Below are positions 488-48,019 of a DNA stretch of 51,029 bases, in pieces. The stretch's first letter is position 1. Every line of letters starts with the position of its first letter. A program made the position numbers and the translations under genes. Source of the stretch: Halobacillus yeomjeoni. Lineage in GTDB: Bacteria > Bacillota > Bacilli > Bacillales > Halobacillaceae. The stretch is from NCBI RefSeq assembly GCF_020171525.1, contig NZ_JAIVAI010000010.1:1-51029 (forward strand), in the 5' to 3' direction. Under the pieces are notes generated by a model. That model saw nothing but the letters and a program-made list of their open reading frames with translations. It did not search any database and was not told the origin of the DNA.

Positions 488-2002
<1,515 letters not shown>

Positions 2003-2023
2003 TCATGTATACCGCTTCAATAA

Positions 2024-2051
2024 TAAAAACTGCCAGCTTGAAACTGGCAGT
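2024..2051 (-). terminator. Terminator-like hairpin at the very start of the lysS leader
   Basis: The minus strand reads ACTGCCAG, a 7-nt loop, then CTGGCAGT (arms 2044-2051 and 2029-2036), followed by TTTTATTATT. It has the form of an intrinsic terminator, but it lies downstream of the lysS -10 box and starts about 10 nt after the predicted transcription start. It could end folate-operon transcripts, attenuate lysS, or act as a 5' stabilising hairpin. Confidence 0.7.
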
Positions 2052-2067
2052 ATTCCAACTATGGTTT

Positions 2068-2096
2068 AGTATAGAAAAGTCCTCGACCCGTGTCAA
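2068..2096 (-). promoter_or_regulatory. Sigma-A promoter of lysS
   Basis: A perfect TTGACA (2091-2096) and TATACT (2068-2073) are separated by 17 bp on the minus strand. The predicted start is near 2061, about 89 nt before the lysS start codon. I recognise no T-box motif in the leader. Confidence 0.85.
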
Positions 2097-2273
2097 CGCT
2101 CAGGAAGAACAGGATACTTTTCTCCTTAATTAAAACCTTTTTATAAATTCACCAAGAGAGTTAAACATCGTTTTCAATGTACATGAAGGTTTCTCATGCC
2201 ACCATGTCCTTTTTACCTCTCTAGTATTATGAAGCATATTGTCGTATTTCCATTATGACCACTATGATCGCTC

Positions 2274-2771
2274 TTATATTCTTCCCCAAACACGAATTTC
2301 TGACTTATTTTGTTCAGGCAATTCATTTATTATCATTTGCGCGGTTTGATTCAACCCAGGGATTGTTACCTGAGGAGCAATTTCTGCAAGCGGGACCATA
2401 ACGAACGCTCTATCCTGCATAGAGGGGTGAGGGATAATCAACCGTTCTGTTTCCATATTTTCTTGATTAAACAGTAATATGTCAAGGTCTATTGTGCGAG
2501 GCCCCCATTTTACAATTCTCCTTCTTCCAAGGTCAGCTTCTACCGACTGACAAACATCAAGCAATTGCAAAGGAGAAAGGGTCGTAGATATTTGTATCAC
2601 CATGTTTAAAAAGTCGTTTTGTTCCGTATATCCGACAGGAGCTGTTTCATAAATGGATGACTTCTGTATGACTTCCAATTCATTTTGTTGATCTAACATT
2701 TCTATGGCGTGTTTCAAATGATCTTCTCTTTGAGAGATGTTAGATCCGAGAGCTATATACACGGTATTCAT
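2274..2771 (-). CDS. folK: 2-amino-4-hydroxy-6-hydroxymethyldihydropteridine pyrophosphokinase (HPPK)
   Basis: Transfers pyrophosphate from ATP to 6-hydroxymethyl-7,8-dihydropterin, the step before dihydropteroate synthase in folate synthesis. The protein is 165 aa, the usual length for the family. It shows the N-terminal ALGSNIS motif, the RWGPRTIDLDILL-type signature (here KWGPRTIDLDILLF) and the following IPHPSMQDRAFVMVPLAEIAP. Its start codon overlaps the folB stop (ATGA), so the two are translationally coupled. It is the last gene of folP-folB-folK. No strong terminator follows within 200 bp except the hairpin in the lysS leader. Confidence 0.96.
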   Translation of the reverse strand: MNTVYIALGSNISQREDHLKHAIEMLDQQNELEVIQKSSIYETAPVGYTEQNDFLNMVIQISTTLSPLQLLDVCQSVEADLGRRRIVKWGPRTIDLDILLFNQENMETERLIIPHPSMQDRAFVMVPLAEIAPQVTIPGLNQTAQMIINELPEQNKSEIRVWGRI

Positions 2772-3133
2772 GAAGAACGGCTCCTATATATTTCGATGGC
2801 GACTGATTTATAGTGGCCTGGAATAGGCGGGTCGGGCTTATATACTTTCACCAGGCAGGCATCAATAATAGAAAACTGATCCAACAATTCGTTCGCTAAT
2901 TTCTCTGCCACCGTTTCGACAAGGTGGTGAGCTCTACCTTCAACTATTTTCTTACATATTTCATAAGCAGCACCGTAGTCGACTGACTTTTGCATATCGT
3001 CTGAAAGAGCCGCTGGTTTTAGATCTAATTCCAGCTGCAAATCAACATAAAAACGCTGCCCTAATTTATTTTCCTCAGGGAAGAGGCCGTGATAGCCCCA
3101 GAATTCCATCTGGTTCAAATATATTTTATCCAT
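2768..3133 (-). CDS. folB: Dihydroneopterin aldolase
   Basis: Converts 7,8-dihydroneopterin to 6-hydroxymethyldihydropterin and glycolaldehyde. At 121 aa it is the normal size. Recognisable features are the start MDKIYLNQMEFWGYHGLFPEE, the SVDYGAAYEI segment and the C-terminal VKVYKPDPPIPGHYKSVAIEI stretch, which carries the conserved catalytic-lysine region. It overlaps folP by 8 nt and folK by 4 nt, so the three folate genes form one tightly packed unit. Confidence 0.95.
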   Translation of the reverse strand: MDKIYLNQMEFWGYHGLFPEENKLGQRFYVDLQLELDLKPAALSDDMQKSVDYGAAYEICKKIVEGRAHHLVETVAEKLANELLDQFSIIDACLVKVYKPDPPIPGHYKSVAIEIYRSRSS

Positions 3134-3959
3134 TCTTTACACCCTTTCCTAGCATGGCATCCATCATCCTGGTCATACGGGAGATCGGCTTCACGTCATG
3201 AACTCTTACAATCTGGACCCCTTGAGAAATGGCATAACATACTGTAGCTCCGGTTCCTTCCATCCGTTCATCTTTCGGCAGATCCAACGTGAGACCAATG
3301 AAAGATTTGCGGGAGCTGCCGAGCAGTAAAGGGTATCCCATATCATGGAATTGGTAAAGGTTTCTCATTACGACCAGATTGTCTTCTGGCGTTTTTGCAA
3401 ACCCGATACCGGGATCAAGTATAATTTGTTCATCTTTTACTCCTGCTTTTTTAGCTGCCACAACACTCTTTTTCAAGTCTGTTTTCATATCAGAAATGAG
3501 GTTGTCATAATCTTTGTCTTCCCTGTTATGCATCAATATGATGGGCACTTCGTATCGAGCGGCAACTTCAACAATAGCCGGATCTTTTTTCGCTCCCCAC
3601 ACATCGTTGACGATGGAAGCACCAGCTTGAACCGCCTGTTCGGCTACTTCCGCCTTGTACGTATCAATGGAAATAGGGATGTTCACTTTTTGTTTCACCG
3701 CCTTGATAATCGGTAGAACCCGTTCCAACTCCTCTTGTTGAGAAACAGGTTCATGCCCCGGCCTTGTCGATTCACCACCTATATCGATGATGTCAGCTCC
3801 CTCTCTTTCCATAGTGAGGGCTTGCTCTACCGCAGCTTCGACATCATTGAAACGACCTCCATCGGAGAATGAATCGGGGGTAGCATTCAGAATACCCATT
3901 ACAAGCGTCCGCTCTCCAAGGTTGAATTGTTTTTCATTTGTTTGCAAAATATAACTCAT
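3126..3959 (-). CDS. folP: Dihydropteroate synthase
   Basis: Condenses p-aminobenzoate with hydroxymethyldihydropterin pyrophosphate; it is the sulfonamide target. The 277-aa protein has the signature MGILNATPDSFSDGGRF near residues 22-38, the DIGGESTRPGHEPV motif, the ISIDTYKAEVA strand and the LLGSSRKSFIG loop. An AGAGGG ribosome site precedes the ATG. In B. subtilis the gene follows pabB-pabA-pabC. Here it follows cysK and its terminator directly, so p-aminobenzoate genes must lie elsewhere or be missing. Confidence 0.97.
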   Translation of the reverse strand: MSYILQTNEKQFNLGERTLVMGILNATPDSFSDGGRFNDVEAAVEQALTMEREGADIIDIGGESTRPGHEPVSQQEELERVLPIIKAVKQKVNIPISIDTYKAEVAEQAVQAGASIVNDVWGAKKDPAIVEVAARYEVPIILMHNREDKDYDNLISDMKTDLKKSVVAAKKAGVKDEQIILDPGIGFAKTPEDNLVVMRNLYQFHDMGYPLLLGSSRKSFIGLTLDLPKDERMEGTGATVCYAISQGVQIVRVHDVKPISRMTRMMDAMLGKGVKNG

Positions 3960-4042
3960 CCAAGTTCCCTCTTTCCCCTAAATCTTCTGCCCTTATCTTA
4001 CAACATTTTGCCTTTTCTATCACATCAACCGAGAGGACAAAT

Positions 4043-4076
4043 AAAAAAGCTGCGCTCTTAGGAAAGAGCACAGCTT
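4043..4076 (-). terminator. Rho-independent terminator of cysK
   Basis: The minus strand reads AAGCTGTGCTCTT, a short loop, AAGAGCGCAGCTT, then TTTTTA. It begins 6 nt after the cysK stop and separates cysK from folP. Confidence 0.9.
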
Positions 4077-4082
4077 GATGAA

Positions 4083-5009
4083 TCACTCTTCTTCAAATTG
4101 ATAAAGCGGAGTGGAAAGGTAGCGTTCTCCATTACTCGGAATGATGGCGACCACTTTTTTACCTTTTCCAAGTTTTTTAGCAACTTGTTTCGCAACGTGA
4201 ATTGCGGACCCGGAGGAAACACCACCTAAGATACCATCTTTTCTAGCGGCTTCACGTGCTGCAGCATAGGAATCCTTCATAGTTACTTGATACACTTCGT
4301 CATAAATCGAAGTATTCAATATACCAGGAACAAAACCAGCTCCTATTCCTTGGATTTTGTGGGGGCCGGGCTCCCCTCCAGATAAGACAGGAGACCCTTC
4401 CGGTTCAATGGCGACGATCTTGATATCAGGATACCGTTCTTTCAATACTTTTCCTGCCCCTGTAATCGTTCCTCCCGTTCCTATTCCTGCAACAAAGGCG
4501 TCCAGTTGATCACCCATTTGCTCAACAATCTCCGGGCCGGTCGTTTTTTCATGAATATATGGATTAGCTTCATTATTGAATTGCTGCGGCATGAAATATC
4601 CGTGCTGTTCTTGAAGTTCCGCAGCTTTCTTGATCGCTCCCTTCATTCCTTCGCTTCCAGGAGTAAGTACAAGTTCAGCACCATAAGCACGGAGCAGGTT
4701 TCGGCGCTCCTGGCTCATCGTGTCGGGCATGACAAGGACTGTTTGGTATCCTTTTGATGCCGCGATCATTGCCAGGCCGATGCCCGTGTTTCCACTTGTC
4801 GGTTCAATAATCGTGTCCCCGGTATTAAGAAGGCCGGCTTTTTCAGCTTCTTCGATCATAGAAAGAGCGATTCTGTCCTTCACAGAAGAACCCGGATTCA
4901 TGTATTCCAGCTTCAGATAAATATCTGCACTATCTTCCTCTGCACTTCCAACCAGTTTTACCATTGGAGTTTTACCAACCAGTTCACTTACATTGTTCGC
5001 TATTCTCAT
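4083..5009 (-). CDS. cysK: Cysteine synthase A (O-acetylserine thiol-lyase)
   Basis: PLP enzyme making L-cysteine from O-acetylserine and sulfide. PLP lysine: the [18 protein letters not shown] motif near residue 41. Substrate loop: [12 protein letters not shown]. Phosphate-binding loop: [12 protein letters not shown]. The C-terminal GGVSSGSA segment is also intact. I chose the ATG at 5009 ([10 protein letters not shown], 308 aa) because AAGGAG lies 7 nt upstream; a longer in-frame start at 5030 would bury that site. A TTGACA-N17-TAGATT promoter precedes it. In B. subtilis cysK is CymR-regulated, but I could not confirm a CymR site. Confidence 0.96.
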
Positions 5010-5053
5010 TCTCCCACTCCTTAATACCAAGTGTTTTTATAGGATTTAATTTC

Positions 5054-5082
5054 AATCTACCTGATATACTAAAGGTTGTCAA
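5054..5082 (-). promoter_or_regulatory. Sigma-A promoter of cysK
   Basis: TTGACA (5077-5082) and TAGATT (5054-5059) lie 17 bp apart on the minus strand, about 45 nt before the cysK start codon. Confidence 0.8.
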
Positions 5083-5085
5083 ACC

Positions 5086-5336
5086 TTTCCACTCACTGGC
5101 CGCTTGCAGTCACCAGCATTTATAAATGGTATTATCAGCTTCCAGAAAAAATTAATATTATTTATATACAATCCCCCTGTTCTGGATAAGAAAAGTTCTT
5201 TCAATCCAGGAGGGGGGGGGAGCGATACGAACTTAATTAAGGCATGACATTTTGTTTATCTTTATCAATTCCGTGATTCATATTCGAGGTTCATTCCCAA
5301 AGGTTCAATATCTTTGAAAAAAGGATGCAAATCTAA
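5086..5336. other. Intergenic stretch without recognised gene
   Basis: About 250 bp between the cysK promoter and the hslO terminator. I see no convincing ORF or RNA gene. It holds an AT-rich segment around 5140-5170 and an 11-base G-rich run (GGAGGGGGGGGG) near 5211-5220, which could be prone to slippage. In B. subtilis yacD (a PrsA-like foldase gene) occupies this position; nothing like it is visible. Confidence 0.6.
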
Positions 5337-5383
5337 GAAAAAAAGCGGAACAGCCACATCGGGGGGTGTTCCGCTTTTTTTAT
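5337..5383 (-). terminator. Terminator of hslO (symmetrical)
   Basis: Complementary arms AAAAAGCGGAACA and TGTTCCGCTTTTTT flank a GC-rich loop. The stem carries T-runs on both strands, so it could work in either direction. It lies 20 nt beyond the hslO stop. Confidence 0.9.
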
Positions 5384-5401
5384 ATTTAGAGATCGCTTTA
5401 A

Positions 5402-6283
5402 TTACTCGGTTGAGCCTGACTGTAGTTCTTTCAGCTCTTCTTCATTAAATTGATAATCTTCGTTACAGAAGTGACATTTGGCTTCTGCTCCTTGATCTTC
5501 ATCAATCATTTTTTGGATTTCTTCATCTCCGAGACTGGATATAGCTGTTTCTACCCGCTCTCTGGAGCAGTGACATTTGAATTGGATCGGCATCGTATCG
5601 AGCACTTGTACATTGTCTTCCCCTAGTACGGCATGTAAAATTTCTTCAGGACTTTTACCATCACGAACAAGAGAAGAAATCGCCGGCATTTCTGTAAGTC
5701 GTTTCTCGATTTCACTCGTAGTCTCGTCATCAGCTCCAGGCATCATTTGTATGATAAACCCTCCTGAAGCAAGAATGGAATGATCAGTGTCGATGAGAAC
5801 TCCTGCACCGACAGCTGATGGAACCTGTTCGGAGTTAGCAAAGTAATAGGTGAAATCTTCACTTATTTCTCCTGAAATCAAAGGTACCTGACCAGTAAAA
5901 TGGTCTTTCATGCCGAGATCTTTGACTACGCTTAACGTTCCGCTCGTACCTACTGCCCGAGCCACATCGAGTTTCCCTTGGTCATTCAAATCGAAATCTA
6001 CATGAGGGTTTTTAATATATCCTCGTACTTCACCTTTTGAATTAGCGTCTGCAATCAAAGCACCTGCAGGACCGTCACCTTCAATTTTTATGGTGATCTT
6101 GTCATCACCTTTCAACATGGCCCCCATCATGGCACTGATCGTGAGAGTTCTTCCCAGGGCAGCTGAAGTTGTAGCCCATGTATCCTGGCGGCGGCGGGAT
6201 TCTTCCACAGTATCCGTGGATTGAACAGCGTATGCCCGCACCTGTCCGTCATAAGCCATCGCACGCACTAAATAGTCTGACAT
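5402..6283 (-). CDS. hslO: Hsp33 redox-activated holdase chaperone
   Basis: Cytosolic chaperone that becomes active when its C-terminal zinc centre is oxidised. All four zinc-binding cysteines are present as CHC ([10 protein letters not shown]) and CHFC ([10 protein letters not shown]). The N-terminal domain has the family start [19 protein letters not shown] and the [10 protein letters not shown] segment. I preferred the ATG at 6283 (293 aa), since it matches the length of the B. subtilis protein and leaves 10 nt after AAGGAG. The ATG at 6292 is only one or two bases from that site. The gene is coupled to coaX, whose stop codon lies inside the ribosome-site region. Confidence 0.95.
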
Positions 6284-32147: not shown

Positions 32148-32354
32148 GCCTATTTTCTAAAAAATTTTTATAATCTAATTTTTCCATATGCTCTAATGGA
32201 GTTACGAATGGACTTACCCAACACATGGAACAGGTTTAGATGGAGCGATTAAGAGAGGCTCTTCCGGGTGCTGAAGTGTCCAAAAAAGCCAATTTAAGCT
32301 CATCAATTGGCTTTCTCATGTGAACCTGGATTGAGGCAGGGGGATTTTTTAAAA

Positions 32355-32745
32355 AGGCTCTGTTAAAGATTGGTGTTGGTATTTCACATGTGAGCTTACA
32401 TCAGCTATTTCCGTAGAAGAATTAGTGTGAGGCGGCCTTTTAGAATGACTCGCTTTCCGTGGGGTACCGTGAGCCTCCTCAGGCTGACGCCTTCCGGTGT
32501 CTCACGATGTACCTTTATCCCACAGGAGCCTCACCATCCCCAAAGCCATCTCCTCAAAATAGGTGGACGGAAAGGCCATATTACATTTATAAATGAAAGT
32601 TCGTTACACTAACTTTGAATGGGAGGGAAGGGAAAACAGGGAGACTCCTGTAGGAAAAAGGAACAAGGTGAGAACCCGAAGAACGAAGTTCGAGGAGACT
32701 CAGCTTTCTCGTTATAAATATCAACACCAAACTTTAAAAGAACCT
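32355..32745. mobile_element. MITE-like inverted-repeat element, copy 1 (391 bp)
   Basis: The ends are 30-bp inverted repeats that agree at 26 of 30 positions (left 32355-32384, right 32716-32745; motif AGGYTCTKTTAAAG-TTGGTGTTG). Inside is a core at 32431-32579 (CGCTTTCCGTGGGGTACCGT, CTCCTC, CCACAGGAG) shared with copy 2. A second, diverged core copy in reverse orientation lies at 32638-32711, so the whole unit can fold back. There is no coding capacity for a transposase. It lies between spoVG and purR. Confidence 0.75.
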
Positions 32746-32788
32746 AAAAAAAGGAAGCTCTTTTTGACTACAAAGAGACTTCCTTTCT
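32746..32788 (-). terminator. Terminator of purR
   Basis: Minus strand AGGAAGTCTCTTT, loop GTAGTC, AAAAAGAGCTTCCT, then a run of T. It abuts the right end of the repeat element. Confidence 0.85.
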
Positions 32789-32791
32789 GCT

Positions 32792-47687: not shown

Positions 47688-48019
47688 AGGATCTGTTAAT
47701 GCTTGGTGTTGTTATCTCACAATAAAGGTTGAAAACAGCTCTTTCTTTTGCAAAATCGCGTGAAGGCGGTCTTGGGAATGACGCGCTTTCCGTTGGGTAC
47801 CGTGAGCTCCTCAGGCTCTCACGATGTACCTATATCCCGCACGAGTCCCGCCATTCCCAAGACCGACTCTAGAAAAATGGGATATAAAGGCCATAAACCA
47901 TAATAATAAGTCCGGTTAACCAACTATGGTTAAAGTAAACGCCGCAAAACCGCAACCCCAGACGGGTGCAGTTGTAAGAAATGGTTGTAAATATTAACAA
48001 AAGACATTAAACAAATCCC
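47688..48019. mobile_element. MITE-like inverted-repeat element, copy 2 (about 332 bp)
   Basis: The left end (47688-47720) closely matches the left end of copy 1 (AGGATCTGTTAATGCTTGGTGTTG); the right end (about 47987-48019) is a diverged inverted copy. The core at 47765-47894 is collinear with copy 1 (CGCTTTCCGTTGGGTACCGT, CTCCTCAGGCT, CTCACGATGTACCTATATCC, AAAGGCCAT) but lacks about 17 bp. It is bounded by a perfect 14-bp inverted repeat, CGGTCTTGGGAATG with CATTCCCAAGACCG. It fills nearly all of the yaaQ-yaaR gap and carries no ORF. Confidence 0.75.

Follow-up and report, generated by a model that had tools for sequence, protein, structure and literature searches.

The inverted-repeat element between purR and spoVG in Halobacillus yeomjeoni is, with little room for doubt, a non-autonomous MITE of the IS1595 family, probably dependent on a transposase acting in trans whose source this genome has apparently since lost. 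Four observations bear out the original prediction of a non-autonomous MITE. Firstly, many copies with the same ends are present in the same genome. Secondly, these copies are bounded by 8-bp target duplications. Thirdly, the equivalent gap is short and empty in most of the related genomes. Fourthly, elements encoding IS1595 transposases have the same ends; one with an uninterrupted transposase is present in a sister genus, and only fragments of such a partner were found in the genus of the window, the window being the whole stretch of 51,029 nucleotides that was analysed.

These comparisons are consistent with a simple history. A DDE transposase of IS1595 type, acting in trans, would have recognised the GGCTCTGTTAAA..GTGTTGAT ends, and a staggered cut at insertion would have duplicated eight AT-rich bases. 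At this site the duplicated bases would have been the U-tract of the purR terminator, such that the terminator survived. In its commonest form, of 469 bp, the element carries two opposing copies of a conserved hairpin of ~105 nt between these ends, and the window copy has lost one arm of the second. With the source of transposase now apparently gone from the genome, the copies would decay in place. In this genus the MITEs have probably outlasted their transposase, of which an uninterrupted copy persists in a sister genus. The MITE itself is of an ordinary kind; what sets it apart is its pair of hairpins in opposite orientation, an arrangement also met in other shells.

Structure of the element in the window

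The features of the window, and the transposase-bearing elements with matching ends, are collected in Table 1. The 30-nt terminal repeats originally noted (32355-32384 and 32716-32745, complementary at 26/30 positions, or 87%) are present, and the inverted-repeat element they delimit is real, although its extent of 391 bp has been corrected to the 389 bp from 32356 to 32744. The two ends have 0 and 2 mismatches to a 23-nt pattern of the family's ends, which matches the window three times in total, and none of 100 shuffles. The hairpin-forming core that had been recognised is core A. The second core had rightly been placed in the opposite orientation, but is more than merely diverged: one arm and adjoining sequence, ~90 bp in all, are gone relative to the 469-bp copies.

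Table 1. Features of the window, and IS1595 elements of other genomes with the same ends. Positions are those of the window unless another sequence is named.
Feature	Position	Strand	Details
MITE copy with IS1595-type ends	32356..32744	+	389 bp; ends located by pattern
Left terminal inverted repeat, GGCTCTGTTAAAGATTGGTGTTGGTATTT	32356..32384	+	Pattern common to IS1595 elements L107, L122 and L169
Right terminal inverted repeat	32716..32744	-	GGTTCTTTTAAAGTTTGGTGTTGATATTT on the - strand
Target duplication, left copy TTTAAAAA	32348..32355	.	6/8 identical to right copy
Target duplication, right copy TAAAAAAA	32745..32752	.	Includes the A-run that forms the purR terminator's U-tract
Hairpin core A, complete	32440..32543	+	Covariance model 87.0 bits, E 7e-27, core A belonging to the model's 50-sequence training set; covariation, 52 sequences
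Hairpin core B, one arm deleted	32630..32726	-	Covariance model 31.4 bits, E 4e-8
purR intrinsic terminator, intact beside insertion	32746..32791	-	RNA fold -18.6 kcal/mol, z -4.7, 0/200 shuffles
Second MITE copy, same type, more decayed	47689..48019	+	Left end at 47689, 1 mismatch
IS1595 element L169	Halobacillus sp. A1, 3409-5407		Uninterrupted transposase; duplication AATTCTTT
IS1595 element L107	Sediminibacillus albus		Transposase in two frames; duplication TTTTTAGT
IS1595 element L122	Aquisalibacillus elongatus		N-terminal transposase part only; duplication AAATAAAT
IS1595 element L173	Bacillus mediterraneensis		Transposase by tblastn, 55% identical over C-terminal part; duplication TATTATTA

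Most of the element can fold back on itself, as had been supposed: RNA folding of the whole element stretch gave z scores of -5.5 on the forward and -7.6 on the reverse strand, with 0/100 shuffles equally stable. The accompanying view of it as a structured repeat agrees with the covariation seen in its core. Open reading frames of at least 40 aa overlapping the element are 45-71 aa long. The element matched no Rfam family at the gathering score; six matches at E<=5, at or beside it and to miRNA and plastid families, all lie below the gathering scores and are likely due to chance. In the second window copy, the hairpin at 47773-47860 scores 42.9 bits with the covariance model, and the right end, read by eye, has diverged.

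A family of copies in the same genome

The further genomic copies with the same ends anticipated by the original prediction are abundant. A blastn search of the H. yeomjeoni genome (3.27 Mb, 15 contigs) with the element returned at least 88 matches, the best 40 of 159 candidates being scored, such that the copy number is a lower bound. Among these best 40 of 159 candidates, at least 40 places including the query reach 250 bits, at least 30 of which span query positions 5-340 or more; the 39 other than the query are 76-87% identical to the window copy. The family's end pattern, with up to three mismatches, occurs 177 times in this genome (90 forward, 87 reverse), against 0 matches to the same pattern read backwards, and the copies are spread over nine contigs. 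Pairing the ends at the 100 of 177 places listed gave elements of 173 to 581 bp, plus one pair of 1344 bp; the commonest length, ~469 bp, corresponds to two complete hairpins placed face to face. The only pair exceeding 1 kb among the listed ends (C3:40503-41846) was considered as an autonomous partner and rejected, consisting of two MITEs around a host gene. The window copy appears to be old, as its nearest relative among those compared is only 86% identical, while copies L003 and L005 are 97% alike.

Some copies in this genome are shorter. Three elements of 263-290 bp (L063, L066 and L078) are apparent fusions of the outer halves of cores A and B, and at least six pairs of 282-291 bp occur among the end places listed. 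The deletion producing the short form may be recurrent, since L063 and L066 are just ~75% alike.

Transposition marks were counted in 46 elements with both ends within 700 bp of each other at up to five mismatches. These came from 51 stretches (L001-L030, L059-L078 and the region of the second window copy); L019, L028, L030, L071, L072, L077 and the second window copy fell outside these limits, and L024, whose copy is also contained in L076, was counted once. The target duplications expected at family copies are evident: 27 of the 46 elements have a perfect duplication of 8 bp, the length usual for IS1595, and 33 match at seven or more of the eight flanking bases, compared with a mean of 3.5 identical bases and 1.4 elements at seven or more in shuffled flank pairings. 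Among the 13 elements below this level, five match at only one or two of eight bases; the ends of at least two of those five, L012 and L060, were apparently misplaced, and both were left as counted in the 46. The duplication around the window copy is itself imperfect and of low complexity.

Gene context was obtained for 35 of the 46 elements, 27 lying between tandem, 5 between convergent and 3 between divergent genes; the gene pairs of the window, for comparison, comprise 39 tandem, 3 convergent and 3 divergent. For 7 of these 35 elements, no more than 5 bp separate the junction from the nearest open frame, and the context method was not designed to reveal insertions inside genes; no claim is made that all copies are intergenic.

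IS1595 elements with the same ends

Insertion sequences sharing the ends of the MITE were looked for, and elements of the IS1595 family were found in related genera and not in the H. yeomjeoni genome itself. Scanning named genomes for GGCTCTGTTAAANNNNNGTGTTGAT yielded at least 114 stretches, chiefly from genera of Bacillales. Among the matches listed, four combine the same ends and perfect 8-bp duplications with IS1595-type transposase sequence between them (L169, L107, L122 and L173), and their ends match those of both the window copy and copy L004. The transposase frame of L169 comprises 352 codons, or 349 aa from its ATG, and the 349-aa protein scores 205 bits against the NCBIfam model NF033547 for IS1595 (cut-off 75) and 47 bits against PF12762 (cut-off 27). 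Its host, Halobacillus sp. A1, belongs to the window's family and to another genus in the taxonomy used. An IS6-type origin, suggested by the GGNTCTGTT ends, was considered and dropped, as the elements with these ends carry IS1595 transposases. The L169 element is 1999 bp long, and a further open frame of ~98 codons behind its transposase is a possible passenger gene.

Within the window's genus, PF12762 was detected in 0/22 genomes, H. yeomjeoni included, and NF033547 exceeded its cut-off in 0/22. Scraps of NF033547 similarity occur in 7 of the 22, none of them in the H. yeomjeoni genome, and each transposase scrap has an end-like 12-mer within about 700 bp. Assignment to the family depends on the ends and duplications of the MITE, and the missing transposase is taken as loss of the partner, rather than failed membership of the family. 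The comparisons suggest that an IS1595 transposase would have mobilised the MITE in trans, that this partner was probably lost rather than absent from the start, and that the copies in H. yeomjeoni look stranded.

Two further elements were encountered. In another Halobacillus genome (G006), L221 contains at 1463-2104 a 642-bp element whose IS1595-type ends enclose a transposase scrap and are flanked by a perfect duplication (TATTTTTT); this element is an intermediate between an IS and a MITE. In a MAG labelled Bacteroidetes, L131 has at 927-3256 an element with IS1595-like ends, flanked by a perfect 8-bp duplication (TAAATTTA) and giving a fragment match to transposase, representing either an occurrence outside Bacillales or a misbinned contig. 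Plasmids searched with one end gave weak matches only (best E 0.8) and none with the hairpin core, and the end pattern had no exact match in viral contigs.

Insertion beside intrinsic terminators

In the window, the right-hand target duplication coincides with the U-run that ends the purR terminator. The stem of this terminator is bulged, and it was missed both by a simple terminator scan and by the detector used in this work; as the detector permits no bulge, the window copy is scored as terminator-negative among the 46 elements. Even so counted, in 24 of the 46 a terminator hairpin points at a junction from no more than 25 nt away, compared with 439/2613 (16.8%) of AT-rich non-coding 8-mers and 1531/15112 (10.1%) of all non-coding positions, these control positions overlapping and not being independent. 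In the named genomes, chiefly of other genera with some Halobacillus, ends were usable in 111 of 114 stretches and assessed on one side only; 20 of the 111 ends have a terminator, against 1821/43305 (4.2%) of control positions and 980/16061 (6.1%) of 8-mers with an A4 or T4 run, and for 19 of these 20 the distance from hairpin end to junction is 6-13 nt.

Transposition may choose terminators directly. That the association instead reflects survival only, insertions behind terminators being harmless and hence remaining, is an evenly balanced possibility: present-day copies are those that have already passed selection, and a preference for AT-rich targets alone leads to T-tracts, as the higher frequency at AT-rich 8-mers than at all non-coding positions indicates, but the enrichment in H. 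yeomjeoni holds against the AT-rich 8-mers themselves. That in the named genomes exceeds either control, and both enrichments are compatible with targeting or survival. The T-tracts of intrinsic terminators are in any event over-represented among the insertion sites of this transposon family, and the insertion in the window, at least, spares the terminator.

A hairpin in several shells

The hairpin was characterised from 52 diverse copies (alignment A1), which share a 23-pair consensus. From 169 hairpins found, 65 were retained below 82% identity, five chimeric or broken copies and nine others were excluded, the latter by hand, and the window's copy was added; a second alignment of 50 hairpins (A2) underlies the covariance model. 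Pairing-preserving changes on both sides affect 14 pairs, versus 10.7 in shuffles, compensatory cells number 143 versus 45, and covariation is 0.341, versus 0.167 in shuffles (0/500) and at most 0.128 with the partners slid, figures to be read with the consensus structure derived from the same alignment and with kinship alone able to beat such shuffles. Covariation is unsupported by the number of further pair types (35 versus 35.4 in shuffles, 351/500 of which reach 35). Covariation therefore indicates that pairing has been kept and not why, since arm-to-arm correction of a palindrome looks the same.

Of 120 genomes of the order, 91 contain at least one match to the covariance model, as do 56 of 73 genera, the best 33 candidates per genome being scored, such that copy numbers are lower bounds. 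The simplest form in other genera, exemplified by L172, is a MITE of ~180 bp whose IS1595-type ends enclose a single hairpin. Where a selected end lies nearby (56 hairpins), end-like 12-mers flank 43 hairpins on both sides and another 12 on one side, against 190 and 973, respectively, of 2944 random positions; 16 hairpins far from a selected end are at about chance level (both sides in 2, one in 5, neither in 9). Examples of other surroundings were taken from the top of the match list rather than at random. Some hairpins lie in GAGGYTGGGACA..TGTCCCARCCTC shells, in genomes G091 and G101, in degenerate form in G106, and at one locus in G021. Within the H. yeomjeoni genome, where the regions were chosen for lying outside known MITE copies, GTTTCC..GGAAAC flanks surround the hairpin at L267, L272, L273 and L275. 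Bare hairpins, finally, occur in G047 and G090; the similarity between two of them, at 99% identity, extends across just 139 bp.

It is conceivable, if somewhat improbable, that the hairpin is the real element, a self-dispersing structured repeat or RNA for which IS1595 ends are one of several vehicles. The compensatory changes, the breadth of the hairpin across the order, both kinds of alternative shell and the near-identical bare copies would all fit such an entity. However, target duplications at the bare hairpins (18 of 21 measurable) do not exceed the level of shuffled pairings, and the CCGCTGTTGATTTCC of these hairpins recurs at the inner ends of L102, an IS1595-type MITE, so that they may be relics; wobble counts favour neither strand as RNA (27 G-U versus 19 A-C cells, p 0.30, one near-constant U-G pair omitted), further pair types do not exceed shuffles, and the window copy is without an Rfam family. 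The bare hairpins may thus be end-less relics of IS1595-type MITEs, or a separately spreading unit. The idea of the ~105-nt hairpin as an order-wide nomadic module, characterised by its fold no less than by its sequence, housed, frequently as opposing pairs, in several MITE-like shells (of IS1595, GAGGYTGGGACA and GTTTCC..GGAAAC type) and also spreading bare without duplications, is correspondingly tentative; were it true, it would imply a mobilisation route of its own, or a selected role for the folded strand. The interpretation of the window element as an IS1595-family MITE aside, a structured hairpin of this prevalence, with several vehicles and no Rfam match in the window copy, is of wider interest.

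In G101, the hairpin-bearing repeats L231 and L232 have ends, GAGGTTGGGACA and TGTCCCAGCCTCTTTTT, that would jointly make a terminator-like hairpin.

Comparison with known repeat families

The terminal-repeat pattern of the window MITE is that of the IS1595 family (NF033547, PF12762) and its derived MITEs, as are the perfect AT-rich 8-bp duplications of its relatives, and the sister genus keeps an uninterrupted transposase with the same ends. It differs in being geneless, in its paired opposing hairpins, and in lacking a partner transposase in its own genome or the set of genomes from its genus. REP and BIME sequences are likewise intergenic palindromes often alternating in orientation, but REPs are described as 20-40 bp (PMC3733652), whereas the hairpin here is ~105 nt and lies inside an IS1595 MITE. 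The bcr1 repeat of the Bacillus cereus group, counted among MITEs (PMC3733652) and given as 147-167 bp (PMC2267715), is also a short repeat with traits of mobile elements; going by its description, it is set apart by a restriction to the B. cereus group, of which it is said to be specific in a title cited in PMC3733652. The Bhal-1 stem-loop family of B. halodurans, described as 74 bp and 36 sequences (PMC2267715), resembles the present hairpin, by that description, in being an intergenic stem-loop of similar size class in a related species, and could be part of the same hairpin family. Among the matches listed in a literature search, there were no IS1595 MITEs in Halobacillus, no name for the window MITE, no terminator targeting by IS1595 and no recognisable description of the window hairpin.

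The purR-spoVG gap and yabJ

The element had been described as occupying the position of yabJ, and its location between purR and spoVG stands, though not as a replacement. Both genes are readable in 21 of the 22 genomes of the genus, the exception having a contig without purR. In 18 of these 21, H. yeomjeoni being one of the 21, the gap measures 151-217 bp and contains neither yabJ, for which this length is insufficient, nor the element; these are also the empty sites that had been sought in relatives. RidA-family genes are present in all 31 genomes searched, and the sole RidA/YabJ-family match in H. yeomjeoni is at C2:181295-181648. The order purR-yabJ-spoVG is kept in 5/5 loci examined from other families, one of which (L102) retains yabJ and has a MITE of this kind between it and purR, the flanking duplication (TATTTTAA), read by eye, being perfect. 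Hence the absence of yabJ follows the genus and not the insertion, contrary to the suggested link between the element and loss of the gene.

The gap is nevertheless a repeated landing place. Its three other lengths are, in ascending order, 488, 576 and 706 bp; the genomes with these long gaps are H. yeomjeoni, H. halophilus (G001) and G017, in each of which the only RidA/YabJ-family match lies outside the gap. The H. halophilus insert is beside the purR terminator and has one IS1595-like end (GGCTCTGTTAAAC..), with no clear second end and no hairpin match, and the insert in G017 is a hairpin pair without IS1595-type ends. A fourth genome, G033, whose contig is without purR, has a hairpin upstream of spoVG (L091). 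This recurrence could suggest selection of the element at this locus for a regulatory or terminating role between the two genes, or a connection with the loss of yabJ, but that is highly improbable, given that the three gap inserts differ in kind, that 18 of 21 genomes have none, that the gap lacks yabJ whether or not an insert is present, that copies are found on nine contigs, and that purR retains its own terminator.

Two features of the gap lie outside the MITE. Without it, the gap in the window would be ~317 bp (including 32196-32347), 100-166 bp longer than in the 18 short-gap relatives, and a terminator-like inverted repeat, AGCCAATT..AATTGGCTTT, is found at 32288-32314.
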